A DNA stretch of 64,000 bases from contig NZ_JADEWC010000013.1 in NCBI RefSeq assembly GCF_015207825.1, positions 1 to 64,000 on the forward strand, given 5' to 3'. The translations under genes and the position numbers were made by a program. Under the pieces are notes generated by a model. It was not told the origin of the DNA and searched no databases. It saw nothing but the letters and a program-made list of their open reading frames with translations. How positions within the stretch are numbered: the first letter of the stretch is position 1; every line of letters starts with the position of its first letter. Positions 14,059 to 41,700 of the stretch are shown here, piece after piece. The DNA comes from Cyanobacterium stanieri LEGE 03274 (lineage in GTDB: Bacteria > Cyanobacteriota > Cyanobacteriia > Cyanobacteriales > Cyanobacteriaceae).

Positions 14059-14231
14059 GGTTATTTTTAGTAATTAAAATATTTTATTTGGGCTTTTTTG
14101 TCTGGGTAGAGTTAAACTAAACTACTGTAAAGCTCTGGCTGAATTGAAAAATAAAAAGCAAATTTACAGTAATTATAGTCTGAGTGTGCCAATTATCAAG
14201 TTAAGACGAAATTAACAAAATTGAGAATCTA

Positions 14232-15428
14232 ATGAGTAGTATTTCCCTATGTATGATTGTTAAAGATGAGGCGAAGTCTTTGCCTAATTGTCTTAATAGT
14301 GTAAAAGATTTTGTTTCGGAAATGGTGATTGTCGATACGGGTTCGACGGATGATACTAGGGAAGTGGCGCAGGGTTTTGGGGCGAAGGTGGTGGATTATG
14401 AGTGGAATAATAATTTTGCGGATGCTCGTAATTTTGGTTTGGGTTTTGTGGAGTCGGATTGGGTTTTGGTTTTGGATGCGGATGAGGTTTTTAATGGGGA
14501 GGTTTTTCCTGCCATAGAAAAGGCGGTGGGGAAGGATGATAATTTGGTGGTGAATTTGATTCGTCATGAGGTGGGGGCGAATTCTTCTCCTTATTCGTTG
14601 TTGTCTCGTTTGTTTCGTCGTCATCCTCAAATTAATTTTTCTCGTCCTTATCATGCTTTGATTGATGATGCGGTGGAGGGTTTACGGGAGGAAGAAGGCC
14701 ATTGGCAGGTGGTGGATTTGGCTCAAGTGGCGATCGCCCATTATGGTTATCAACCTGCTATTATTGAGGCACAGGATAAGGCACAGAGGGGAAGGGTTGC
14801 CATGGAGTCTTATCTTAAGGAGAATCCCAATGATAGTTATGTATGCAGTAAGTTGGGGGCGCTTTATCTACAGTTAGGGGAGAAAAAAAAGGGTTTAAAG
14901 TTGTTAACTAAGGGCTTAAAGTTACATGGTAGTAGTCCTGCGACTACGTTTGAGTTACACTATCATCTAGCTAATGCTTTGGTAAGGGATAGTCAGATTG
15001 ATTCGGCGATTAAACATTATGACAAGGCGATCGCCCTTCCCCTTTTACCTATGATAAAATTAGGGGCTTATCATAATTATGCTAGTTTATCTTACCAACA
15101 AAAGGAATATTTAAAGGCGATCGAGTTATACCAAGAATGTCTAAAAATTCAGCCTAATTTTGCTTTGGTTTACTATAATCTGGGTTTATGTTACAAGGCT
15201 TTGGGGCGTAATTTCAAAGCTATTACGGCCTATCAAAACGCCATTAAACTTAATCCTAACGATGCCTATGCCTATCAAAATCTGGGGTTATTGTTATATC
15301 GACAGGCTCAATACGAAGATAGTCAGAAAGCCTTACAACAGGCTGTTATGTTGCACCGTCAACAAAATCCTAACTTTGCCATACAATTAGAACAGGAGTT
15401 AAGGGCGATCGGTTTTTCTTTTGAATAG
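14232..15428 (+). CDS. Family 2 glycosyltransferase with C-terminal TPR repeats
   Basis: 398 residues. The N-terminal GT-A domain (about 1-170) has the typical SLCMIVKDEAKSLPNCLNSV opening, VDTGSTDDT and the metal-binding ESDWVLVLDADE. It is followed by at least four TPR units (about 200-380; clear ones start YHNYASLSYQQKEY, VYYNLGLCYKALGR and AYQNLGLLLYRQAQ). This SunS-like GT2 plus TPR layout is common in cyanobacteria; the sugar and acceptor are unknown, and both protein and polysaccharide targets are possible. No membrane segment is seen, so it is probably cytosolic. The first 500 bases are unusually rich in GAT/GAG codons, giving long shadow frames on the other strand. Confidence 0.8.
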   Translation: MSSISLCMIVKDEAKSLPNCLNSVKDFVSEMVIVDTGSTDDTREVAQGFGAKVVDYEWNNNFADARNFGLGFVESDWVLVLDADEVFNGEVFPAIEKAVGKDDNLVVNLIRHEVGANSSPYSLLSRLFRRHPQINFSRPYHALIDDAVEGLREEEGHWQVVDLAQVAIAHYGYQPAIIEAQDKAQRGRVAMESYLKENPNDSYVCSKLGALYLQLGEKKKGLKLLTKGLKLHGSSPATTFELHYHLANALVRDSQIDSAIKHYDKAIALPLLPMIKLGAYHNYASLSYQQKEYLKAIELYQECLKIQPNFALVYYNLGLCYKALGRNFKAITAYQNAIKLNPNDAYAYQNLGLLLYRQAQYEDSQKALQQAVMLHRQQNPNFAIQLEQELRAIGFSFE

Positions 15429-27923: not shown

Positions 27924-29180
27924 TTAAAAGCTATACTTAACTTGTGCTTTTAACTGTTCATTACGATAGGAAGTTGCATCTCCTTCCACCGTTAAGATAT
28001 TGGAAACTCGATAACTTAAATCTAATACTGTACGGGGAAATAAAGTAGCCTGACATAAACCCTCATAAACAAAAGCGTCGGAAAATTCCCCCTCTAACCT
28101 TTGTTGCCCAAAACTTGCGGCTAAACGACAGATTAAAGAATCGGTAAACTGTTTTTTCCAAGCCAACTCTAGGTTATAAACCAAAAAATCTGGGGGAGAA
28201 AAATAACCACTGGAATTTTCAAGATTTTGGGCAAAACTCCAGATAAATAAGTTGCCAGATAAGCTAAATTCACCCAGAGTTTTTTCTAGGCGACTGAAAG
28301 ATTGAAACTCGTGGTTACCATCGGAAAAACTACCATATTGGGCAAAACTAAATAAACTTATATCAGGGGCGATTAACCAGTAAAATTGAGGTCTAAATCT
28401 CCATAATGTCACTTCATTTTCAATGGTTGTTGCATTAAATTTATAGGCTTGATGTTCAACGGTTGCCCCCGCCACAAACAATGATTGTAATGCCCCATCT
28501 TCTTCTATGTTAATGGATAGTGGTTGCTCTACACTTACACTCAAGTTAGGGCTATTTCTGATACGGTCAAAAAAATCTACCCCTACATTAAGATTTAGAT
28601 TAGTATTATTAAGCTGTTTTTGCCAACCAAAGATTAAGGGAATATGGTTAATGTCTTCGATGTCTGTTTTTCTAAAACTATTAATTCCTGTACGAAGATT
28701 AAAGTTATTTTGATTGGGGCTTTGAAAGTTTAATAGTATTTCTCTATAAATATTTTCTTGCCCAAAGTTGTCACTGTCTAAATAGAAGCTGGGGGTAATA
28801 CTTTCTATTTTAAATCTGTTGATTTCATTGGTTTGTAAATCCCTAGACTCAGGATTTATAAATGTGTCGTTGAGGGAAGGGTTAAAGTTTTCTGGGGAAG
28901 CAATTAGATATTCTTTTTTATCAAATATTTGGTTATATAATTTTATTTTGTTGTTAACAATAACACTACTTTTAGTTGGTATTTTAAAACTAGAATGACT
29001 AATAAAATATTGTTTATTAAGTTTTTTATTAGATGATAAATAGTCTTGATTAAGGTTTTCAGAGGTATTATTGTAATTGTTATCATTAGCTGTGATTATT
29101 CTTGTTACTAAGAAAAAGTCTCCTAAAAGGAAAGATAAAAATAGTATAAATAACTTTGTATTATATTTTTTTTTATGCAT
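27924..29180 (-). CDS. Putative outer-membrane beta-barrel protein
   Basis: 418 residues with an N-terminal signal/anchor (KLFILFLSFLLGDFFLV, about 9-25), an Asn/Ser/Lys-rich spacer to about residue 115, then alternating amphipathic strands (for example NLNLNVGVDFFDRIR and PQFYWLIAPDISLFSFAQYGSF) and a terminal ...AQVKYSF. A C-terminal phenylalanine after an alternating strand is the assembly signal of outer-membrane barrels. It is not recognised as a named family. It is divergent from the DUF3131/GT2 genes with 123 bp between starts, so it may be the export channel of that locus; this is inference. Confidence 0.6.
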   Translation of the reverse strand: MHKKKYNTKLFILFLSFLLGDFFLVTRIITANDNNYNNTSENLNQDYLSSNKKLNKQYFISHSSFKIPTKSSVIVNNKIKLYNQIFDKKEYLIASPENFNPSLNDTFINPESRDLQTNEINRFKIESITPSFYLDSDNFGQENIYREILLNFQSPNQNNFNLRTGINSFRKTDIEDINHIPLIFGWQKQLNNTNLNLNVGVDFFDRIRNSPNLSVSVEQPLSINIEEDGALQSLFVAGATVEHQAYKFNATTIENEVTLWRFRPQFYWLIAPDISLFSFAQYGSFSDGNHEFQSFSRLEKTLGEFSLSGNLFIWSFAQNLENSSGYFSPPDFLVYNLELAWKKQFTDSLICRLAASFGQQRLEGEFSDAFVYEGLCQATLFPRTVLDLSYRVSNILTVEGDATSYRNEQLKAQVKYSF

Positions 29181-29303
29181 ATTAGTAGATTAATTATTTT
29201 TTTTCTATTAACATATACTATGATTACGTACCAAAGTAAAAATAACAAAAATTAACCTTTACAAAACTTTGTTTTAATTTTGAGCTAGGAATGGATAAAA
29301 ATA

Positions 29304-32072
29304 ATGGGTATAAAACGTAAAAGAAGTATTATTAACCGATGGCTAAAAATAATTAGTTTGTGTCTAATGAGTTTTTTAATTAGTCATTATATTAGTTTGA
29401 ATACTGTGGAACGATCACTTTTTTTTAGCAAAACAGCATCTATGGCCTTTGCACAATCGGGGCAAATCAGTTTCTGTGCCAATATTAGTAAGCCTTTAAC
29501 GGAAGAAGAAAATCAGTGGGCGCGAGTGGCATGGTCATATTTTGTGAATAATTATCAATGGGAAACAGGTTTTGTTAATTCAGCTAATGATTTTACTTCG
29601 ACTACTGCTTGGGATATGGGGAATTATCTAACGGCATTAAATGCGGCTCGTTGGTTAAATATTATTGATCAAGGGGATTTTGATGCTCGGTTGAATAGGT
29701 TTTTAGAAAGTTTGGTTAGTATTAAGTTATTTGAGGATTCTTTGCCCCATAAGGTTTATAGTACGGTTTCTAGGGAGTTTGTGGATTATGGAAATAATCC
29801 TGTAATTAATGGTATTGGTTGGTCTGCCCTTGATATAGGTAGGCTTTTGGTTTCTTTACATAGTTTGCGCACTTGTCATCCTCAGTATGGGGATTGGATA
29901 CAATCTATTGTGGGGGGATGGGATTTAGATCGAATTGTTCAAAATGGGCAGTTATATGGTGCTACGGTTTCAAGAAATGGACAGACTAGGTTAGTACAGG
30001 AGGGGCGATTGGGCTATGAACAATATGCTGCTAGGGGGTTTCAGTTGTGGGGTTATGAAGCGCCTTTGGCTCTTTCTTTTGAGCCATTTAATTTGGTAGA
30101 AATATATGGGGTGGAAATTCCTGCGGATAGTCGTGATTTTCAGAGTACCAATGGTAATAATTATGTGGTGAGTGAGTCTTATATTCTTGATGGTGTGGAG
30201 TTTGGTTTTTTGGGTACTCAGATGCAACAGTATGCGAGAAATATTTTGGAGGTGCAAGAAAGACGTTATTTAGCTATGGGGCAGTTAACGGCGGTGACGG
30301 AAGATAATATTTTAAGGGAAGATAAAGATCCTAATGTACCTTCTTTTTTATATAATTCCATTTATGCTAATGGTAATGCTTGGACTACTATTACGGAGGA
30401 TAATATGCAGTATCCTCAGTGGAGCACTATTAGCACTAAGGCGGCTTTGGGTTTACATTATCTTTTTCCTCAGAGTGAGTATGGCAATAGGTTAAGGGCT
30501 TTTGCATCGGGGATGATTAGTCCTAATGGTGGTGGTTTTTATGCTGGGGAGTTTGAGGAAGATGGTAGTAAGAATATTATTTTGACGGCTAATACTAATG
30601 GTTTAATTTTGGAGATGCTTTATTATAAGGCTAGGGGCGATCGCCCTTTAATCCGTAATCCTGTGGTGAGTAGCTCGGTTGGCAATCCTGAAGGGATTAA
30701 GGTAATGAGTAACTATCCTTCTCCTTTGGCTTGTGCTGGTGAAAATAGGGGCGTTATAGAGGTTGAACCTATTCCCTCCATTGGGGGAGTTTTCGGGGGA
30801 AATTGCTATGGCATTAATGGTAACCGTTGGGATGAGGAAACTAGGATAATTGCCCAAAGGGCGTGGAAATATTTTGAATCCCATTATGAACCTAGTACGG
30901 GGTTAGTGCGCGATCGCACCGATGTAAGAGCCACAAGTTTATGGGGCATGGGGGATTATCTTATGGCATTACAGGCCGCAGAATCTTTAGATATTATCAG
31001 CAATGAAGTATTTGAAGAAAGAATGAGAATGTTTTTAGGGGCGCTCGGAAAATTACCTTTATTTGCGGGGGAATTGCCCCATCGGGGTTACAATGTGCGA
31101 ACTTTGCAACCAGTGGACTATGGTAATAATAACTTATCAGATATGGGTAATGGTTGGTCTGGATTGGATGTTGGTAGATTACTTTTAGCCCTCCATGATC
31201 TCAAATCTTGCTATCCTCGCTATGGTGAGTCTATTGATTCTATTGTCCTTAATTGGTCTTATTTAAGGGTAATTCAAAATCAAAGGATTCACAGTGCGAT
31301 CGCCCTTGAAACAGACAATCAAAATCTAACTAGGGTATATCCCAATAGCTACATTGGCTATCAAGAAATAGCAGAAAAAGGTTTTCAACTGTGGGGCTTT
31401 GAGATTAACAACTTAAATCGACAATATCAGACACAAACCATAGAAGGCATTTCTCTGCCCATCACTACTCAAAGCCTAGTCAATCAAACCCTTCCTGAAA
31501 ATAATCCTCTACTCAGTAGCCCCTTACTACAATACGGCTTATACTTCGGAATAGAATCCCCCCTCAAACCTTACCTAGAAGGAATACTAGAGGCAGAAAA
31601 TAAACGTTACCAAGGCACAGGAAGACTCAGCGCCAGTGGTACGAGCCTGATTTCTACTTCCCCTTATATTATCCATAGCACCATTATCGGCAAAGATAAT
31701 CAACCCTGGGCCACATTTAGTAACCAAGAATCCCTTTCCCCAGAGCAAAGAATTATCAACACAGGTTCAGCTTTTGCCTACAATGCCCTTTTTCCTGACA
31801 ATAATTATGCTCGTCAGCTAAAGGAATCCGTTAAAAACGCCTATGATAACAACCTTGGTTATAGGGAAGGCATCAGAGAAGTGAATGGGGAAACCGTTCA
31901 AGGTTTTAGTGCTAAAACTAATAGTTTGATATTACAATCCTTGCTTTATCATGTTACCGAGCAACAACCCACTTTGCTTAAAAATTTTAACCTTAATTCT
32001 CCTTGGTGGAGAGCCATAAGGGAACAAAAACAGGGAAATGGGTTACCTACCATTGCCAATCCCCAAATCTAG
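29304..32072 (+). CDS. Exported protein with two DUF3131 domains
   Basis: 922 residues. An N-terminal signal or anchor (about 1-50, ending MAFAQ) precedes two homologous domains of about 430 residues. Domain 1 starts near 65 (WARVAWSYFVNNYQWETGFV...TTAWDMGNYLTAL) and domain 2 near 510 (IAQRAWKYFESHYEPSTGLV...TSLWGMGDYLMAL); both share LPHKVY/LPHRGY, VDYGNN, GWSALDIGRLL/GWSGLDVGRLL and GFQLWGYE/GFQLWGFE. DUF3131 has an alpha/alpha barrel-like glucoamylase look and is often found beside cellulose-synthase-like glycosyltransferases, as here (220 bp upstream of GT2). A periplasmic glycosidase or glycan-binding role is likely but unproven. The tandem duplication inside one chain is notable. Confidence 0.8.
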   Translation: MGIKRKRSIINRWLKIISLCLMSFLISHYISLNTVERSLFFSKTASMAFAQSGQISFCANISKPLTEEENQWARVAWSYFVNNYQWETGFVNSANDFTSTTAWDMGNYLTALNAARWLNIIDQGDFDARLNRFLESLVSIKLFEDSLPHKVYSTVSREFVDYGNNPVINGIGWSALDIGRLLVSLHSLRTCHPQYGDWIQSIVGGWDLDRIVQNGQLYGATVSRNGQTRLVQEGRLGYEQYAARGFQLWGYEAPLALSFEPFNLVEIYGVEIPADSRDFQSTNGNNYVVSESYILDGVEFGFLGTQMQQYARNILEVQERRYLAMGQLTAVTEDNILREDKDPNVPSFLYNSIYANGNAWTTITEDNMQYPQWSTISTKAALGLHYLFPQSEYGNRLRAFASGMISPNGGGFYAGEFEEDGSKNIILTANTNGLILEMLYYKARGDRPLIRNPVVSSSVGNPEGIKVMSNYPSPLACAGENRGVIEVEPIPSIGGVFGGNCYGINGNRWDEETRIIAQRAWKYFESHYEPSTGLVRDRTDVRATSLWGMGDYLMALQAAESLDIISNEVFEERMRMFLGALGKLPLFAGELPHRGYNVRTLQPVDYGNNNLSDMGNGWSGLDVGRLLLALHDLKSCYPRYGESIDSIVLNWSYLRVIQNQRIHSAIALETDNQNLTRVYPNSYIGYQEIAEKGFQLWGFEINNLNRQYQTQTIEGISLPITTQSLVNQTLPENNPLLSSPLLQYGLYFGIESPLKPYLEGILEAENKRYQGTGRLSASGTSLISTSPYIIHSTIIGKDNQPWATFSNQESLSPEQRIINTGSAFAYNALFPDNNYARQLKESVKNAYDNNLGYREGIREVNGETVQGFSAKTNSLILQSLLYHVTEQQPTLLKNFNLNSPWWRAIREQKQGNGLPTIANPQI

Positions 32073-32292
32073 TCAAGCTATGACGAGGTTATAAAGTACC
32101 TTTGAATATCAGTCAAAATAACATTAGTTTTCTTGCATCCTTAGAGTATTGATTATTTTGTTTGTTGGTTGAGATATTGAGGACATATCAACCTCCTTTA
32201 GTTAGAAAATCCTTTAGGGGGTAAGTTAGATGGTTGAAGTTCAAATCCCCTGAATTGATTGGTAGAGAGTATCAAATTATCAAAAAAAAATT

Positions 32293-34671
32293 ATGGTTGA
32301 AGATAATTATTGTTTTTCAGGAAACTTAGAAACCCGTTTAAAAAAAGGCACACGACCTTTACGTTTTCTGATTATTATTAACCTTATCTGTGGGGCTTGG
32401 TATTTACAGTGGCGTATTTTTAATTCTATTAATGTATCTGCCTTGTGGTTATCTATCCCTCTATTGTTAGCGGAAATTTATTGTTATGTGGGGGGAGTGA
32501 TGTTTTTTATTGGGTTGTGGAATCCCCTCGAGCGCCGCATACGTTCATTAAAATATCTTCAACCAACCTTGCCAGAGGAGCAAATTCCGAATGTTGATGT
32601 ATTTATTACCTGTTATAACGAACCTGTGGAAATGGTCGAAAAGACGGCAAGAGCGGCATTGAATATGGATTATCCCGTATCAAAGTTAAAAGTTTATATC
32701 CTTGATGATGGTAATTCTCCCGAAATGAGGGCCATGAGTCAAAGACTTAATATTGAAGATTTACAAACTCCCCGTTTAAGACAGGAGGTTAAGTCCATTT
32801 CCCAGAGGCGATCGCAATTACTAGCCAACCTAGAACAAGTAGAAACCTTAACCCCAGAGCTAGATAACGCCCAACAAATCCTCAACAAATTTCGGATCAA
32901 AGTTAAACCTACTAAAGAATACACCAAAAAAGTATTACGCTGGTTTGAGAAACAAAAGCCCTTATATGTACCAGCTGAAGTGTGGCAAGACTGTCATTTA
33001 GCAGTATTAGAAGGATTTGAACATCAAATTATCAAAAATAGTTTACAAATAGAGAAAAAATATTTAACCTTAATAGATTTAACTATTTTAAGCTATGGTA
33101 TTGAAATCAAAATTTGGGATAATAATCGTCATTACCAAACCAATAAATTATTTACAAGTCCGAATCTACCTGCCGTTAATGAAGAAGAAGGACAACACTT
33201 AAAAACCATTGCTGAGGTGATGGATAGTTATAGTTATATTTCTATGGGTAACCAAGGAAACTGTCTTACCCTTTATAAATCCTATACTGCCATTCCTAAC
33301 ATGGAGGAAATCGCCACAAAATCTATAATGGCAGGATATTTAAAAGGATTAACGGAGTTAGTTTTACAATTTAATCCTAGTTTAAGTCACATAAACCAGT
33401 ACTTAGTAAAAAAAAGAGCAGAATTATTAGACACCATAGAAAAAGAAGAATTAAAACTAAGTAGCCTATTAAGATGTCACTATATTGCTCGTCCTAAACC
33501 TCCAGGGAAACCGCACCACGCCAAAGCAGGGAATATTAACTACGCTATTTTTTCTGGAAGCACAAAAGGAGACTTTATTTTAACTTTAGATGCTGATCAT
33601 ATTCCTCAAGCTCAATTTTTACAAAGGGTAATTCCTTATTTTTTCTCCTACAATTTGATGACAGGTCGATATTATGAAAATATGATTGCCTTTGTGCAAA
33701 CCCCCCAAGCCTTTTATAATTTACCTTCTGGAGATCCTTTCGGTCATCAGGCTCATCTTTTCTATGGATTAATTCAACAAAGTAAAGATGGTATGAATTC
33801 GGCTTTTTATACGGGTACTAACGCAGTATTAAGAAGAGAAGCATTAATTATGGTGGGTTTAAAAAATTTTGCCGCCGATTTTCAGAAAGATCAATCTCGC
33901 TTGGAGGAATTTGATTTGGTGGGGGGGGTATCGAGTAATAGTATTACTGAAGATATGAATACCGCCATGAGGTTACATAGTGCAGGGTGGAGGTCAGTTT
34001 ATCACAATGAGCCTTTGTCGGCCGGACTTGCGCCTGATGATTTGATTTCTACCTTGCAACAACGGTTGAGATGGGCGCAGGGTACTATTCAGGTGTTACT
34101 GAGGGAATCTCCCCTAACGAAAGAGGGTTTGACCTTGGGGCAAAGGTTACAATATTTTCAAACTATGTATAGTTATTTTTCTGGGTTTGGGATTGTTATT
34201 TTTTTGTTAAGTCCCATTGTTTATTTTTATACAGGGATAGTGCCTGTTGTTGATTTTAACAATGATTTTGCTTTTTATTTTGTTCCCGCTTTTGTGCTTA
34301 ATCGTCTTACTTTTATGATGGCGAGTTGGGGTATTCCTGCAAGGGAACTTTGGCGCAGTGAGCAATATGCGATCGCCCTTTTTCCTTTATATATTCAGGC
34401 GGTAATTAGTGTTTTTAGTGGTAAACCCCTTAGCTTTAAAGTAACCCCAAAGGAAAGACAATCGGGAAACTATTTTCGTTTAATTATTCCCCAAGTTGCG
34501 ATCGTTGTCCTGACGGTTGGAGGTATCTTCTGGACAGGTATTCAACTTTTGATCGGCACATATAAAGAACCCGCACTTTTTTTATTGAATGCGGGTTGGT
34601 CTATTTATAATATAAGTGTACTATCCATTGTTATTAAGGCAGCCACATGGCAACCATCAGAAAAAGATTAA
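32293..34671 (+). CDS. Cellulose-synthase-like GT2 with large insertion and no PilZ domain
   Basis: 792-residue processive membrane glycosyltransferase. Two N-terminal helices (about 24-75) are followed by the GT-A domain with FITCYNEP (104-111), DDG (138-140), HAKAGN (409-414), LDADH (432-436), SITEDMNTAM and QRLRW, and four or five C-terminal helices. The residues match BcsA-type synthases using UDP-glucose or a similar donor. Two deviations stand out. About 225-240 residues (roughly 155-395) are inserted between DDG and HAKAGN, where BcsA has only about 20-45. The protein also ends soon after the last helices, so there is no C-terminal PilZ domain for cyclic-di-GMP. Product: a beta-glucan or related exopolysaccharide. 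Confidence 0.88.
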   Translation: MVEDNYCFSGNLETRLKKGTRPLRFLIIINLICGAWYLQWRIFNSINVSALWLSIPLLLAEIYCYVGGVMFFIGLWNPLERRIRSLKYLQPTLPEEQIPNVDVFITCYNEPVEMVEKTARAALNMDYPVSKLKVYILDDGNSPEMRAMSQRLNIEDLQTPRLRQEVKSISQRRSQLLANLEQVETLTPELDNAQQILNKFRIKVKPTKEYTKKVLRWFEKQKPLYVPAEVWQDCHLAVLEGFEHQIIKNSLQIEKKYLTLIDLTILSYGIEIKIWDNNRHYQTNKLFTSPNLPAVNEEEGQHLKTIAEVMDSYSYISMGNQGNCLTLYKSYTAIPNMEEIATKSIMAGYLKGLTELVLQFNPSLSHINQYLVKKRAELLDTIEKEELKLSSLLRCHYIARPKPPGKPHHAKAGNINYAIFSGSTKGDFILTLDADHIPQAQFLQRVIPYFFSYNLMTGRYYENMIAFVQTPQAFYNLPSGDPFGHQAHLFYGLIQQSKDGMNSAFYTGTNAVLRREALIMVGLKNFAADFQKDQSRLEEFDLVGGVSSNSITEDMNTAMRLHSAGWRSVYHNEPLSAGLAPDDLISTLQQRLRWAQGTIQVLLRESPLTKEGLTLGQRLQYFQTMYSYFSGFGIVIFLLSPIVYFYTGIVPVVDFNNDFAFYFVPAFVLNRLTFMMASWGIPARELWRSEQYAIALFPLYIQAVISVFSGKPLSFKVTPKERQSGNYFRLIIPQVAIVVLTVGGIFWTGIQLLIGTYKEPALFLLNAGWSIYNISVLSIVIKAATWQPSEKD

Positions 34672-36175: not shown

Positions 36176-37138
36176 ATGACCTATTTAGAAACCACAGCCC
36201 AATTTTACTCTGAAGTCGCTCAAACCCCCGAAGTGGGTTTATGTTGCGTCCAAAGCAGTTCATTACAACTACCAGGATTAAAAATTCCCTGCAAAATGCA
36301 AGAAATGAACTACGGCTGTGGTACAACGGTACACCCCAACGAATTAGCCAACAATCCCACCGTTTTATATGTAGGAGTAGGGGGCGGTTTGGAAGCTCTG
36401 CAATTTGCCTATTTTAGCCGTCACCAAGGGGGAGTTGTTGCCGTTGAGCCTGTAGAAGCCATGAGAAATGTGGCAAGGGAGAATTTAAAACAAGCCACCA
36501 ACCTTAATGAATGGTTTCAAGAAGAATTTGTAGAAATCCGAGAAGGAGATGCCTTTAACTTACCCGTAGCAGATGAATCCGTTGATTTGGTAGCCCAAAA
36601 TTGTCTATTTAATATTTTTGAACCCCAAGACTTAGCCACAGCCCTCAAGGAAGTTTATCGAGTCTTAAAACCGGGGGGAAAATTGTTAATGAGTGATCCC
36701 ATCGCCACCCAACCCATACCCTCCCATCTTAGACAGGATGAACGTTTACGCGCCATGTGCTTATCAGGGGCGCTGACTTATAACCAATATATCAAACATT
36801 TAATTGATACAGGTTTTGGGCAGGTAGAAATTCGTACCCGTCGCCCTTACCGTTTATTAGACACTAATAATTATCAGTTAGAAAAACCCCTGTTATTAGA
36901 AAGTTTAGATACCGTATCTTTTAAAGTACCTATTGCCGATGATGGGGCTTGTATTTTTACAGGAAAAACAGCCATTTATCATGGTGATTTAGATCATTTT
37001 GATGACAATGCAGGACATATTTTAACTAAAGGAGTACCGGCTTCTGTATGTGATAAAACCGCCGCCAAATTAAACGAATTTTCTGATATTTATATCACTG
37101 ATTCCACATGGCATTATGACGGTGGAGGTTGTTGTTAA
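36176..37138 (+). CDS. arsM: Arsenosugar-pathway arsenite methyltransferase ArsM
   Basis: 320-residue SAM methyltransferase. The SAM site is VLYVGVGGGLEALQFAYF with the acidic VAVEPVEAM; after it comes the motif-IV region SVDLVAQNCLFNIFEP. N-terminal cysteines (LCCVQSS, IPCKMQ and NYGCGTTVHP) and a terminal GGGCC are the expected As(III) ligands. This is the cyanobacterial ArsM subtype linked to arsenosugar synthesis, methylating arsenite to dimethylated species. The radical-SAM gene arsS follows 221 bp downstream on the same strand, then pstSCAB. Confidence 0.88.
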   Translation: MTYLETTAQFYSEVAQTPEVGLCCVQSSSLQLPGLKIPCKMQEMNYGCGTTVHPNELANNPTVLYVGVGGGLEALQFAYFSRHQGGVVAVEPVEAMRNVARENLKQATNLNEWFQEEFVEIREGDAFNLPVADESVDLVAQNCLFNIFEPQDLATALKEVYRVLKPGGKLLMSDPIATQPIPSHLRQDERLRAMCLSGALTYNQYIKHLIDTGFGQVEIRTRRPYRLLDTNNYQLEKPLLLESLDTVSFKVPIADDGACIFTGKTAIYHGDLDHFDDNAGHILTKGVPASVCDKTAAKLNEFSDIYITDSTWHYDGGGCC

Positions 37139-37359
37139 TTAGGGGTTAATGAAAAGATGTAATCATTAGAGTAGGGAACAGGGAACGGGGAACAGGCAAA
37201 AGATGATAATTATTTATCGTAAATAGTTACACGTTGGATAATACTAAAATTGACTAATTAAATTTGGTATTATTTGTTTTTAATTTAATGGTAATACACT
37301 TTAAAACCTACTTTTATCTATACTCTGTGACCAAATTAATAAAAAATTAATCAATAAAT

Positions 37360-38355
37360 ATGACTGTAAATACAATCACTACAATAACTCCTTTTAATCA
37401 GAAAATAAAAACGCCTTTACTTAAAGATAAAATAACCGTTTTACAAATTAATTTAGGGAAAAAATGTAACCTTGCTTGTCGTCATTGTCATGTGGAAGCA
37501 AGTCCAAAACGTACAGAGGAATTAACCCCCAAAATTTGTGAACAACTACAACAATTAATTGCTAAATTTCCTCAGATACAAACAGTAGATTTGACTGGAG
37601 GAGCACCCGAATTAAATTACGGTTTTAAGCCCTTGGTGGACACTGCAAGGCAATATAACAAAGAGATTATTGTGCGCTCAAATTTGACTATCTATTTTGA
37701 GGAAGGTTTTGAGGATATTCCTGTCTATTGTGGAGAAAACAAGGTTAGGATTGTGGCTTCTTTACCCTGCTATTTAGAAGATAATGTAGATAAAGTGCGA
37801 GGTAAGGGAGTTTACGATCAATCTATTAAAGCTATTCAATGGCTCAATGATTTGGGTTATGGAACAGATCCAGATTTGATTTTAGATTTGGTTTATAATC
37901 CTCCTTTACCTACTACTACAAAGTTTTCTTTGACGGCGGATCAATATAAATTGGAAACAGCTTATAAAATGTTCTTACAAGAACATTTTGAGATTAATTT
38001 TAATAACCTTTTAACCATTACTAATTTGCCCATTGGCAGAACTAAAGTTTTCTTGGAAAAACAGGGCTTCATTGATGATTATTTATCTTTTTTAGAGTCT
38101 AATTTTAATCCCACTACGATTAATAATTTAATGTGTCGTAATCAATTATCTATTGACTACTTAGGTAATGTTTATGACTGTGATTTTAACCAGATGGAAA
38201 ATTTACCTGCTAAAACCGATGATGGTGAAGATTTGACGGTTGCTAAGTTACTGGCAATGGATAGTTTGGATGTCATAGAAAAGGTACAAACTGCACCCTA
38301 TTGTTATGGTTGCACGGCAGGGAGTGGTTCGAGTTGTGGTGGTGCTTTGAGTTAG
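37360..38355 (+). CDS. arsS: Arsenosugar biosynthesis radical SAM protein ArsS
   Basis: 331 residues. The radical SAM cluster motif CNLACRHC (residues 36-43, C-x3-C-x2-C) is followed by the family's DLTGGAPELNYGF and a C-terminal DUF3641-type region with CRNQLSIDYLGNVYDCDFNQ and a Cys-rich end APYCYGCTAGSGSSCGG, probably a second iron-sulfur site. ArsS transfers a 5'-deoxyadenosyl group to dimethylarsenite, the step after ArsM. pstS begins 30 bp after the stop, so arsS and the transporter are probably one transcript. Confidence 0.9.
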   Translation: MTVNTITTITPFNQKIKTPLLKDKITVLQINLGKKCNLACRHCHVEASPKRTEELTPKICEQLQQLIAKFPQIQTVDLTGGAPELNYGFKPLVDTARQYNKEIIVRSNLTIYFEEGFEDIPVYCGENKVRIVASLPCYLEDNVDKVRGKGVYDQSIKAIQWLNDLGYGTDPDLILDLVYNPPLPTTTKFSLTADQYKLETAYKMFLQEHFEINFNNLLTITNLPIGRTKVFLEKQGFIDDYLSFLESNFNPTTINNLMCRNQLSIDYLGNVYDCDFNQMENLPAKTDDGEDLTVAKLLAMDSLDVIEKVQTAPYCYGCTAGSGSSCGGALS

Positions 38356-38385
38356 CACATCTCAACAAATCGAGGATAGGTGATT

Positions 38386-39240
38386 ATGATTTCAAAAAAA
38401 GCTATTCAAATTTTTTCTCTGGGGATAATTGCACCTCTTACTTTGCAATCATGCCAACAAAATACGGTAACTAATTCGGCGAATACCGATATACTAACAG
38501 GGAGATTGATTATTACAGGTTCAAGCACTGTTGCTCCCTTGGTGTCGGAGATAGGGAAAAAGTTTGAAGGGGAAAATCCTGATGTGCGTATCGATGTACA
38601 AACGGGAGGCTCATCCCGTGGCATTAGTGATGTGCGCAATGGTATTGCAGATATTGGCATGGTTTCCCGTGGCATTACCCCAGAGGAAGATGATTTATCG
38701 TTTCATAGTATCGCTCAAGATGGGGTGGGTATTATCATTCATCAAGACAACCCTATTGATAGTTTATCCGATGAGCAAGTTAAGCAAATTTTCACGGGGG
38801 AAATTAGCAACTGGCAGGAGGTGGGAGGAAAGGATGCCCCCATTACGGTGGTAAATAAGGCGGAGGGGCGCTCTACTTTGGAGCTATTTTTAGATTATTT
38901 TGTCCTTACTAATAGTCAGATAAAGCCTTCTGTGGTGATTGGGGATAATCAACAGGGTATTAAAACCGTTGAGGGAAACTCTTTTGCTATTGGTTATGTA
39001 TCTATCGGCACGGCGGAATTTAGTATTAATAATAATGTACCAATTAAATTGCTTCCTCTCGATGAAATTGGGGCAACTAGGGATAATGTTGCTAATGGTA
39101 GCTTTCCTTTATCTCGTCCTCTTAATTTGGTAACGAATGGTGAGGAGGATTTTTTAACTCAAACTTTTATTAATTATAGTCAATCGGCGGAAGTTCATGA
39201 TCTCATTAAAAAACAGGATTTTGTCACCCTCTCACGGTGA
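38386..39240 (+). CDS. pstS: Phosphate ABC transporter substrate-binding lipoprotein
   Basis: 284 residues from the ATG chosen because GAGGA lies nine bases before it; a GTG two codons earlier is too close. The lipoprotein signal ends LTLQSC. The oxyanion site is visible as ITGSSTVAPL, TGGSSRGISDVRNG and DIGMVSRG, with a later EGRSTLELF. These are PstS motifs. It is a short PstS form. Because it follows arsS closely, its selectivity between phosphate and arsenate is of interest; the sequence does not decide this. Confidence 0.88.
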   Translation: MISKKAIQIFSLGIIAPLTLQSCQQNTVTNSANTDILTGRLIITGSSTVAPLVSEIGKKFEGENPDVRIDVQTGGSSRGISDVRNGIADIGMVSRGITPEEDDLSFHSIAQDGVGIIIHQDNPIDSLSDEQVKQIFTGEISNWQEVGGKDAPITVVNKAEGRSTLELFLDYFVLTNSQIKPSVVIGDNQQGIKTVEGNSFAIGYVSIGTAEFSINNNVPIKLLPLDEIGATRDNVANGSFPLSRPLNLVTNGEEDFLTQTFINYSQSAEVHDLIKKQDFVTLSR

Positions 39241-40075
39241 TTTGCTATGGCGTTGGTTACTCACTATCATTGCGATGATTACGGGGATTATTGTGGTGGT
39301 AATCACGGTATTTTTGTTTTCTGAAGCCTCGACGGTTTTGCAGGAGGTGGGATGGGGAGCTTTTTTTCTAGATCCTTCTTGGCATCCCCAAGAGCAGTTT
39401 TTTAATTTGATACCGATGTTGTTGGGGACTTTGTCGGTGACGGTGGGGGCGGTTTTTTTGGCGATTCCTTTGGGGGTTGCTTCGGCTATTTTTACTCAAT
39501 ATTATGCGCCTCGTGGGGTGGCTTATGTTTATCGTCAGTTAATCGAGTTGTTGGCGGGTATTCCTTCGGTGGTATATGGTTTTTGGGGTTTGGTGGTATT
39601 AGTACCATTGATTAATCGGTTTCAGGCACCTGGTACGAGTTTATTGGCTGGTATGGTTATTCTTACTTTGATGATTTTGCCAACGGTTGCCCTGACGGCG
39701 GAGGCTAGTTTTGAGGAAGTACCTTGGGAGTATCGACAGGGTGCGATCGCACTGGGTTTGTCAAAATGGGCGATGATTTGGGGGGTAATATTACCTGTGG
39801 CAAAATCGGGGGTGATGACGGGGTTTATTTTGGCGACGGGAAGGGCATTGGGGGAGACGATGGCGGTGTTGATGGTATGTGGCAATGTGGTACAAGTGCC
39901 TGACAGTTTTTTTGCCCCTGTGCGTACTTTGACGGCAAATATCGCCCTCGAAATGGCGTATGCCACTGGGAATCATCGTTCGGCTTTGTTTGTCAGTGGT
40001 TTATGGTTGATGGGTGCGATCGCCCTTATGGTATTAATAGCAGAAATTATGAGGGATCAAAATGTTAAGTTATAA
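39197..40075 (+). CDS. pstC: Phosphate ABC transporter permease PstC
   Basis: 292 residues with six membrane helices; opening HGDLLWRWLLTIIAMITGIIVV and the permease loop PSVVYGFWGL...ALGLSKWAMIWGVILPVAKSGVMTGFILATGRALGETMAVLM identify PstC. The ATG at 39197 overlaps pstS by 44 bases; a TTG at 39242, right behind the pstS stop, is an alternative that would remove 15 residues. It pairs with PstA to form the channel. Translational coupling along the operon is likely given the overlaps. Confidence 0.9.
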   Translation: MISLKNRILSPSHGDLLWRWLLTIIAMITGIIVVVITVFLFSEASTVLQEVGWGAFFLDPSWHPQEQFFNLIPMLLGTLSVTVGAVFLAIPLGVASAIFTQYYAPRGVAYVYRQLIELLAGIPSVVYGFWGLVVLVPLINRFQAPGTSLLAGMVILTLMILPTVALTAEASFEEVPWEYRQGAIALGLSKWAMIWGVILPVAKSGVMTGFILATGRALGETMAVLMVCGNVVQVPDSFFAPVRTLTANIALEMAYATGNHRSALFVSGLWLMGAIALMVLIAEIMRDQNVKL

Positions 40076-40913
40076 GAAAAGGGAGGGGTTATTAATTAGC
40101 ATTTCATTATGGTTAATGGCTCTGATTATTGTGGTATTTTTTAGTTGGTTTTTAGGAGATATTATTATCAATAGTCGGGGTAAAATATCTTGGCAATTTT
40201 TATTTTCTCAGCCATTAAATGCTGGTAGGGAGGGCGGTATTGCCCCTATTTTGGTGTCAACTTTTTTGATTTTATTCGTAACCATGGTAACGGCTTTACC
40301 TTTGGGAGTTGGCACGGCTATTTTTTTGACAGAATTTACAGAACAAAATAATTTTTTAGGAGTTTTAATTAGGCGTAGCTTAGATATTTTGGCTGGTGTT
40401 CCTTCCATTGTTTTTGGTTTGTTTGGCAATGCTTTTTTTACTATTAAATTAGGTTTAGGTTTTTCCATTTTATCGGGAGGTTTAACCCTTGCTTGTATGG
40501 TATTACCCATCCTCATTCGCACCACCGAGGAAGGACTGAGAAACGTTCCCCTCGATTATCGTTTGGGGGCGGCGGCGTTGGGCATATCTCAACGGGCAAC
40601 TTTATGGCGGATTGTCTTACCCTCTGCGGTGGGGAGTGTCATCGTCGGGTTTGTGTTGGGGGTTGGCAGGGCGATCGCCGAAACCGCTGCCTTAATTTTT
40701 ACCAGCGGTTATGTGGACAGAATGCCTGAATCTTTGATGGATTCGGGGCGCAGTTTATCGATTCATATTTTTGATTTGAGTATGAATGTTAGTGGTGGTG
40801 ATGATAATGCTTATGGTTCAGCTTTGGTGTTATTGATGCTTTTTTTCCTGATTAATTTTATTGCCAAAATAATTTTAAATGTAACTTCTATTGCTCATAA
40901 TAAAAATGTCTAA
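40062..40913 (+). CDS. pstA: Phosphate ABC transporter permease PstA
   Basis: 283 residues, six membrane helices. Typical PstA segments are ISWQFLFSQPLNAGREGGIAPILVSTFLI, DILAGVPSIVFGLFGNAFF and the coupling loop EEGLRNVPLDYRLGAAALGISQRATLWRIVLPSA. The start overlaps the end of pstC by 14 bases in another frame, so translation is probably coupled. Confidence 0.92.
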   Translation: MLSYKKREGLLISISLWLMALIIVVFFSWFLGDIIINSRGKISWQFLFSQPLNAGREGGIAPILVSTFLILFVTMVTALPLGVGTAIFLTEFTEQNNFLGVLIRRSLDILAGVPSIVFGLFGNAFFTIKLGLGFSILSGGLTLACMVLPILIRTTEEGLRNVPLDYRLGAAALGISQRATLWRIVLPSAVGSVIVGFVLGVGRAIAETAALIFTSGYVDRMPESLMDSGRSLSIHIFDLSMNVSGGDDNAYGSALVLLMLFFLINFIAKIILNVTSIAHNKNV

Positions 40914-41700
40914 TTCATCAAAACAAAATATTGTTTTACCATCTTTAAATATAGATAATTTGTCACTTTTTTATCATAAAAAACCTGCTTTTAAAGGAAT
41001 TAATATACCCATCCATGGAGGAAAAATAACTGCTCTTATAGGGCCTTCTGGTTGTGGCAAAAGTAGCTTTTTGAGTTGTATTAATCGTTTGGTGGATATG
41101 ATTCCTAATACTCACATTGAAGGTAATATTCGTTTGGATGGTTTACCCATTTTAGGTAAAAAAATAGATACCCTTAACCTTCGTCGTCATATAGGTACAA
41201 TATTCCAAAAACCTAATCCTTTTCCTTTTTCTATATATAAAAACCTTGCCTTTCCCCTCAAAGAACATGGTATAAAAGATAAAAATAAAATTGAATATTT
41301 AATCGAAAAAAGCCTAAAAAATGTTGGTTTATGGCAAGAAATAAAAGATCGACTGCATCAAAATGCCCTATCCTTATCAGGAGGACAAAAACAAAGATTA
41401 TGTATTGCCAGAGCCTTGATATTAGAGCCAGAAGTGTTACTATTTGATGAACCCTGTAGCGCCCTTGATCCCATTTCCAGCGGTGTTGTAGAAGATTTAA
41501 TCGCCAGTTTGAGAGATAAATATACCGTGGTAATTGTCACCCATAACCTCGCCCAAGCCAAGAGAATCGGTGATTATGGGGCTTTATTTTGGACTGAAAA
41601 TAATATCGGCACTTTGGCAGAATTTGGCACTATCGAACAAATTTTTAACCATCCCCAATCAGAAATTACCAGAGCTTATATTCAAGGAATTAGAGGTTAA
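40906..41700 (+). CDS. pstB: Phosphate ABC transporter ATP-binding protein PstB (operon copy)
   Basis: About 264 residues from the ATG that overlaps the pstA stop by eight bases; a TTG five codons earlier is less likely. Walker [10 protein letters not shown], the PstB signature [37 protein letters not shown] and Walker [14 protein letters not shown] are all present. It is more diverged from typical PstB than the lone copy at 13.2-14.1 kb (for example KSSF for KSTI), fitting the atypical PstB2 class that cyanobacteria pair with a second Pst system. Confidence 0.9.
   Translation: MSNSSKQNIVLPSLNIDNLSLFYHKKPAFKGINIPIHGGKITALIGPSGCGKSSFLSCINRLVDMIPNTHIEGNIRLDGLPILGKKIDTLNLRRHIGTIFQKPNPFPFSIYKNLAFPLKEHGIKDKNKIEYLIEKSLKNVGLWQEIKDRLHQNALSLSGGQKQRLCIARALILEPEVLLFDEPCSALDPISSGVVEDLIASLRDKYTVVIVTHNLAQAKRIGDYGALFWTENNIGTLAEFGTIEQIFNHPQSEITRAYIQGIRG

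Follow-up and report, generated by a model that had tools for sequence, protein, structure and literature searches.

Whether three adjacent genes for an outer-membrane barrel, a protein with two DUF3131 domains and a cellulose-synthase-like glycosyltransferase of family 2 (GT2) form one system, and what would control it, is the question raised by a locus of Cyanobacterium stanieri LEGE 03274 (GCF_015207825.1). The locus lies within positions 1-64,000 of contig NZ_JADEWC010000013.1, and we refer to this whole 64,000-nt stretch as the window. A sequence-only reading of the window had proposed that the three genes serve the synthesis, processing and exit of a glucan, and the three open reading frames (ORFs) are present where it placed them: the barrel gene at 27924-29180 on the minus strand, the DUF3131 gene at 29304-32072 on the plus strand and the GT2 gene at 32293-34671, also on the plus strand. 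That reading overlooked an RsbW/SpoIIAB-like HATPase domain inside the GT2, which was absent from its interpretation. With reasonable confidence, we explain the locus overall as a conserved cell-envelope set for glucan synthesis and export, the synthase of which is probably tied to a partner-switching module.

Conserved linkage of the three genes across cyanobacteria

We examined co-occurrence within the cyanobacterial class, using ~376 genomes for the GT2 and the barrel and 388 for DUF3131. The GT2 clade was found in 39/376 genomes and is sharply delimited, with matches at E ~1e-180 or lower versus ~1e-51 for the next GT2s. DUF3131 is patchy, occurring in 41/388 genomes, two of these with fragments only; the weak matches in G191 and G252 are short fragments and were left out of the counts. 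A profile search matched the barrel family in 44/376 genomes, strongly in 40. GT2 and DUF3131 occur together in 36 genomes, with three genomes having only the former and three only the latter. GT2 and barrel are likewise shared by 36 (GT2 without barrel in three, barrel without GT2 in four), which indicates that the link between barrel and GT2, on which the sequence-only reading had staked its proposal when it suggested a check of co-occurrence and synteny, is conserved. All three families are present in 34 genomes, and the association has a Fisher p < 1e-41. This value must be read with caution, as the genomes include relatives that do not count as independent, and several of the exceptions come from fragmented assemblies.

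The linkage is also seen in gene order. The barrel gene adjoins DUF3131 or GT2 genes in 27 further loci, and among 42 GT2 loci, a DUF3131-family ORF lies in the stretch examined at 36 and a STAS gene at 35, with 29 having a STAS gene directly downstream on the same strand. The commonest order is barrel, single DUF3131, DUF3131 with two to four domains, GT2 and STAS. Further recurring neighbours encode SpoIIE/PAS phosphatases, OpgC, GH16, GH9, GH2 and PIG-L, and the STAS and SpoIIE+PAS neighbours were identified by Pfam. A single scan of genome contigs returned four close relatives only. Because the set recurs across the class, the arrangement of the three genes is not chance.

Candidate route for a glucan

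The GT2 (792 residues) is cellulose-synthase-like, as had been proposed. It matches PF03552 (E 5e-38) and, in the PDB, BcsA (E 5e-55), plant CesA and CslF6, and it scores 330 bits against the CelA model TIGR03030, which is below the equivalog cut-off of 699. The catalytic motifs DDG (residues 138-140), DAD (433-435), TED (552-554) and QxLRW (590-594) fall in invariant columns, and a BcsA-like FxVTPK gating-loop segment is present. In a predicted structure of low overall confidence (mean pLDDT 52, with the HATPase insert mostly at 65-86), the core outside the insert matches BcsA. A Pfam scan of the GT2 gave no match to PilZ, and the protein stops after its C-terminal membrane helices. When BcsB was searched genome-wide, the best match reached 11.4 bits against a cut-off of 21.

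The DUF3131 protein (922 aa; periplasmic, with an N-terminal anchor or signal peptide) is the only one in the genome, and Pfam recognizes the two full DUF3131 domains that the sequence-only reading had described (922 bits), at 29514-30638 (503 bits) and 30849-31958 (427 bits) on the plus strand. A fold search revealed an (alpha/alpha)6 fold closest to GH144/GH162/GH189, the SGL group (clan GH-S / GH189), and each of the first 15 fold matches (Z 33.7-22.5) either belonged to this group or was an unnamed 'putative glucoamylase'. A DUF3131 profile compared with PDB sequences supported only cyclic glucan synthases (8wy1, E 1.3e-5; 6e-4), with the 8wy1 match confined to the N-terminal ~95 residues. 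One 401-aa ORF that linkage had grouped with DUF3131 (L050:13254-14459) proved not to belong to this family and was excluded from the profile search. The SGL group and its clan, which include beta-1,2-glucanases and the cyclisation domain of cyclic glucan synthase, conserve a general-acid Glu, a Tyr and a Phe (E239, Y367 and F286 of XcSGL; PMC10834661, PMC12102758). DUF3131 shares their fold, with a sequence match that is weak but specific, and the papers found on the group (PMC12102758, PMC10834661) do not name DUF3131. Of the periplasmic trimming or guidance that had been proposed for this protein, trimming gains support from a fold that is enzyme-like and related to beta-1,2-glucan enzymes, and the same fold permits a periplasmic or cyclised glucan.

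The barrel protein (418 aa) consists of a signal peptide, a linker and a barrel ending in a C-terminal Phe, and it weakly resembles the C-terminal barrel of BcsC. It passes Pfam BCSC_C narrowly (25.6 bits; gathering score 23.5), and 18/28 members of the barrel family match BCSC_C (E<=0.1), which is consistent with its earlier description as divergent. A C-terminal Phe of the outer-membrane type is present in all 28 members; no tetratricopeptide repeats (TPRs) were matched in any of them, and a linker, which is Pro-rich in the family, takes their place. A search of the barrel profile against PDB sequences yielded no meaningful match and no BcsC structure. In one genome that lacks this GT2 clade, two diverged barrel relatives lie near each other (G230:C202:9938-10774 and 14179-15021).

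The three genes are most economically read as providing synthesis, periplasmic processing and exit. From UDP-glucose, the GT2 would build a glucan, probably one with beta-1,4 or mixed linkages, and thread the chain through the inner membrane; the SGL-type domains of the DUF3131 protein would trim, transglycosylate or guide the glucan in the periplasm; and the BcsC-like barrel would let it out. To this extent the set first proposed stands, and a polymer, its linkage and its actual secretion go beyond what sequence can tell. The further suggestion of an 'undescribed secretion route' was overstated, since a glucan would be expected to leave through a barrel of the BcsC/PgaA type, and one of the proteobacterial DUF3131 clusters includes TPRs with a PgaA-type barrel. 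The claim that the set lacks the usual BcsB and BcsC holds for BcsB, for which no match in the genome exceeded the cut-off, and is only half right for BcsC, given the BcsC-like barrel without TPRs.

These features place the set beside two known systems. Like Bcs (BcsA-BcsB-BcsC), it has a GT2 core with the D, DxD, TED and QxxRW motifs, a gating-loop motif and a BcsC-like outer-membrane barrel, but it differs in that the genome lacks BcsB, the synthase lacks PilZ and the barrel lacks TPRs, and it features the DUF3131 protein and the HATPase insert instead. The XcsA/XcsB/XcsC-TolC model for Thermosynechococcus (PMC12430437) similarly includes a cyanobacterial cellulose-synthase-like GT2 that works without BcsB. 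However, XcsA carries a PilZ domain and has been proposed to act with HlyD and TolC, whereas the window set combines a GT2 without PilZ with DUF3131 and a BcsC-like barrel.

An alternative that we consider unlikely but credible is that the product is not secreted and is instead a periplasmic glucan (cyclised, or like the osmoregulated periplasmic glucans) or an envelope-layer glucan, which DUF3131 cuts or cyclises while the barrel serves something else. OpgC homologues in several clusters and the cellulose layer between the membranes of Synechococcus PCC 7002 (PMC12430437) would fit a retained product. However, the barrel family tracks the GT2 very closely, the GH9 and GH16 neighbours fit beta-1,4/1,3 chains, and the GT2 resembles BcsA and matches OpgH/MdoH only weakly, all of which argue for export.

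An RsbW/SpoIIAB-like domain inside the synthase

The domain overlooked by the sequence-only reading occupies residues 196-334 of the GT2 (32878-33294). It sits within the catalytic domain, between U1 and U2, at the tip of a helical linker whose first arm comprises residues 151-195 (32743-32877) and whose second arm comprises residues 335-394 (33295-33474), all on the plus strand. A Pfam scan of the window GT2 alone reported no HATPase at E<=1 because this copy is too degenerate and becomes visible only through its relatives. Inserts of orthologues match Pfam HATPase_c_2 (E 3.5e-17, 1.2e-18 and 1.1e-16), and a family profile built without the window sequence finds the window insert at E 3e-20. 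The predicted window insert matches the fold of RsbW (6m37; Z 15.7, root-mean-square deviation 1.9 over 112) and of SpoIIAB (1til; Z 15.4). Thirteen standalone ORFs of 136-167 aa near short GT2s also match the insert. Taken together, these results indicate that the insert has an RsbW/SpoIIAB-like fold.

An alignment places the insert between U1 and U2 in 20 long GT2s, including those of the window and of L034, and a tree of the GT2 without the insert is compatible with the long forms being one clade (approximately unbiased test, p 0.56). Relatives take two forms: either the HATPase domain lies inside the synthase, with its ATP residues intact and a STAS gene usually adjacent, or the synthase is shorter, often with a separate gene for the domain. 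The short cyanobacterial GT2s share the helical linker, including its first arm, and proteobacterial GT2s are without it.

Clusters of a related kind occur in plasmid records of Pantoea, Salmonella, Paracoccus and Pseudooceanicola. They encode a GT2 of 604-611 aa without the insert, two or three DUF3131, STAS, an ATP-binding protein of RsbW size, a SpoIIE phosphatase and OpgC or an acyltransferase (mostly OpgC), and some add GH2, GH16 or a TPR+PgaA-type barrel. PMC12974863 mentions a similar block, 3b, in Klebsiella. Such clusters resemble the cyanobacterial ones in combining GT2, DUF3131, STAS, an RsbW-like protein and SpoIIE, mostly with OpgC, GH2 or GH16, but differ in a GT2 without both the helical linker and the HATPase insert; the papers found on them leave their function undescribed. 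In the Salmonella plasmid record CP074295.1 (L111 4323-20101) and in L107, the whole GT2-DUF3131-STAS-SpoIIE-OpgC cluster is accompanied by globin and hybrid kinase genes, and one of these two enterobacterial plasmids was typed as conjugative. Between their SpoIIE and OpgC genes, both encode a conserved protein of ~299 aa without a Pfam match (L107:7493-8392 and L111:6325-7224).

Processive glucan synthases are switched by c-di-GMP via PilZ. The synthase described here, which has no PilZ, may be tied instead to partner switching, with an RsbW-like HATPase inserted in one clade or separate near the shorter synthases, and with further parts of the module supplied by a STAS protein and by PP2C phosphatases of the SpoIIE type. 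The fusion, the neighbourhood and the intact motifs in relatives all point to such control. In relatives, the intact HATPase domain would bind and phosphorylate STAS, and the binding or release of STAS would gate the synthase. A more specific proposal is that these cellulose-synthase-like enzymes are gated directly: a built-in RsbW-type kinase would phosphorylate and release the neighbouring STAS, PP2C would reset it, and STAS docking would control synthesis without a sigma factor or c-di-GMP, with the window lineage having a pseudokinase fixed in one state. We put this version forward tentatively, as one that could go either way and leans slightly toward being wrong.

Compared with known partner switches of the RsbW/SpoIIAB type (SigB, SpoIIA; SypE/SypA; SiaABCD; HmpUVW), the insert shares the fold (Z ~15) and relatives have STAS and PP2C partners, but here the domain lies inside a glycan synthase and the window copy is without its ATP residues. 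Among the known systems, SypA and HmpV are STAS proteins that act in the control of polysaccharide or hormogonia and for which no target is known (PMC8256260), and SiaABCD modulates c-di-GMP (PMC8457831). Anabaena All4160 (cited in PMC8256260) also has a domain of the partner-switching type fused to a glycosyltransferase; it is an N-terminal STAS domain, not RsbW. In open-licence papers, we found no cellulose synthase described as having an RsbW-like domain or a link to partner switching.

It is improbable that the target of STAS, RsbW and PP2C is an alternative sigma factor through which the cluster is transcribed, with the domain in the long GT2s serving as a tether or scaffold only. The textbook targets of RsbW/SpoIIAB are sigma factors, and the RsbW-like protein is separate in short-form loci, which would suit transcriptional control. 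However, the long forms carry the domain within the catalytic domain of the synthase with ATP residues intact, and the STAS gene mostly lies directly after the GT2 gene, which argues for the synthase as the target.

The position between U1 and U2 and the absence of PilZ also match 'PCR type' cyanobacterial cellulose synthases (A2118, alr3757, Npun_F1469), which have no PilZ and an insert at this site resembling the 'plant-conserved region' (PCR) (PMC12430437). That the window insert is such a region is highly improbable, because Pfam and fold searches make it HATPase_c_2/RsbW, which contradicts a plant-like PCR for the window protein.

Degenerate ATP site and setting of the window locus

The ATP-binding residues of the window domain are lost through the changes N244 to H, H250 to S, Gly278 of G1 to N and R301G302 of G2 to QH, at sites where Asn244, His250, Gly278 and Gly302 (N-box, G1, G2) are invariant in 31/31 other domains. 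The structural residues W217, F218, W231, E240, D311 and Y315 are kept. A congener (G390) with a GT2 that is 85% identical has the same gene order, the same losses of ATP residues and no adjacent STAS gene. In a member of the same family (G394; 65%), the HATPase domain is intact and a STAS gene lies 48 bp downstream; between the window and this genome, the linker and domain have changed far faster than the core (39% vs 77% identity). Between the window and the congener, the HATPase domain has dN 0.14, dS 1.9 and dN/dS 0.07, and the core also has 0.07, ratios that are only approximate because dS exceeds 1. Since the two ratios are alike, the window domain is under purifying selection of about the strength acting on the core, and is maintained rather than decaying now.

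No STAS gene is adjacent to the window GT2. At the site of STAS in most relatives, the 3' ends of the GT2 gene and of the CtpB protease gene, which is convergent with it, share 4 bases (34668-34671). Because the ATP site and the adjacent STAS have been lost and yet the domain is under purifying selection, the domain is probably a pseudokinase, and the loss of the ATP residues means that the window must hold a degenerate form of the switch. The synthase of this lineage would be set to one state, or would still be docked by a STAS protein encoded elsewhere.

Several observations weigh against the overall explanation, in addition to the low confidence of the GT2 model and the high dS noted above. 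Separate STAS and RsbW genes could target a sigma factor, not the synthase, and at nine loci of the short form, the stretch examined contains no RsbW-like gene. The window genome itself encodes a cluster-type STAS on contig C11 (G000:C11:35070-35354, L122), which scores 132 bits against the profile of the cluster STAS, and, on contig C20 (G000:C20:3000-3428, L113), an RsbW-like protein that is standalone. The latter occurs in 15/15 genomes of the family and is therefore a general gene; it and the STAS could be equivalents of HmpW and HmpV and act as partners in trans. Because STAS and RsbW-like genes lie elsewhere in the genome, a partner may persist even though the adjacent STAS has been lost. 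Finally, genome G342 (L087) has a long GT2, an intact HATPase domain and an adjacent STAS gene, but no DUF3131 or barrel, an exception that looks real. The switch and the synthase can thus occur as a pair where the export set is absent, and the four components are not inseparable.

In the window, the divergent barrel and DUF3131 genes are separated by an AT-rich region of 123 bp (29181-29303) that may contain a shared promoter region, and the same divergent order is found in the congener (locus L141). The flanking genes are unrelated to the set, with ChpXY and PurE upstream and CtpB downstream. Farther along, positions 36176-41700 hold a gene for an arsenosugar-type ArsM (NF038099, 585 bits), then a radical-SAM-like gene and then phosphate-binding/transporter-like genes, which looks like an arsenosugar/phosphate cluster. 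The divergent transcription of the barrel gene would suit three chance neighbours, a reading that retains virtually no probability, as co-occurrence and synteny recurring across the class refute it.

For DUF3131, a family of unknown function across Proteobacteria and Cyanobacteria, the SGL-type fold provides a first fold-level idea. The set also offers a candidate exit route for cyanobacterial glucans, the secretion of which was called poorly defined in a 2025 review (PMC12430437). The RsbW-like domain within the synthase suggests an on-off control of polysaccharide synthesis of an undescribed kind, and the natural versions of this domain, whether intact, separate or degenerate, make the switching idea directly testable. 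If true, a synthase with a built-in switch kinase would supply a target of the kind that is missing for SypA and HmpV.

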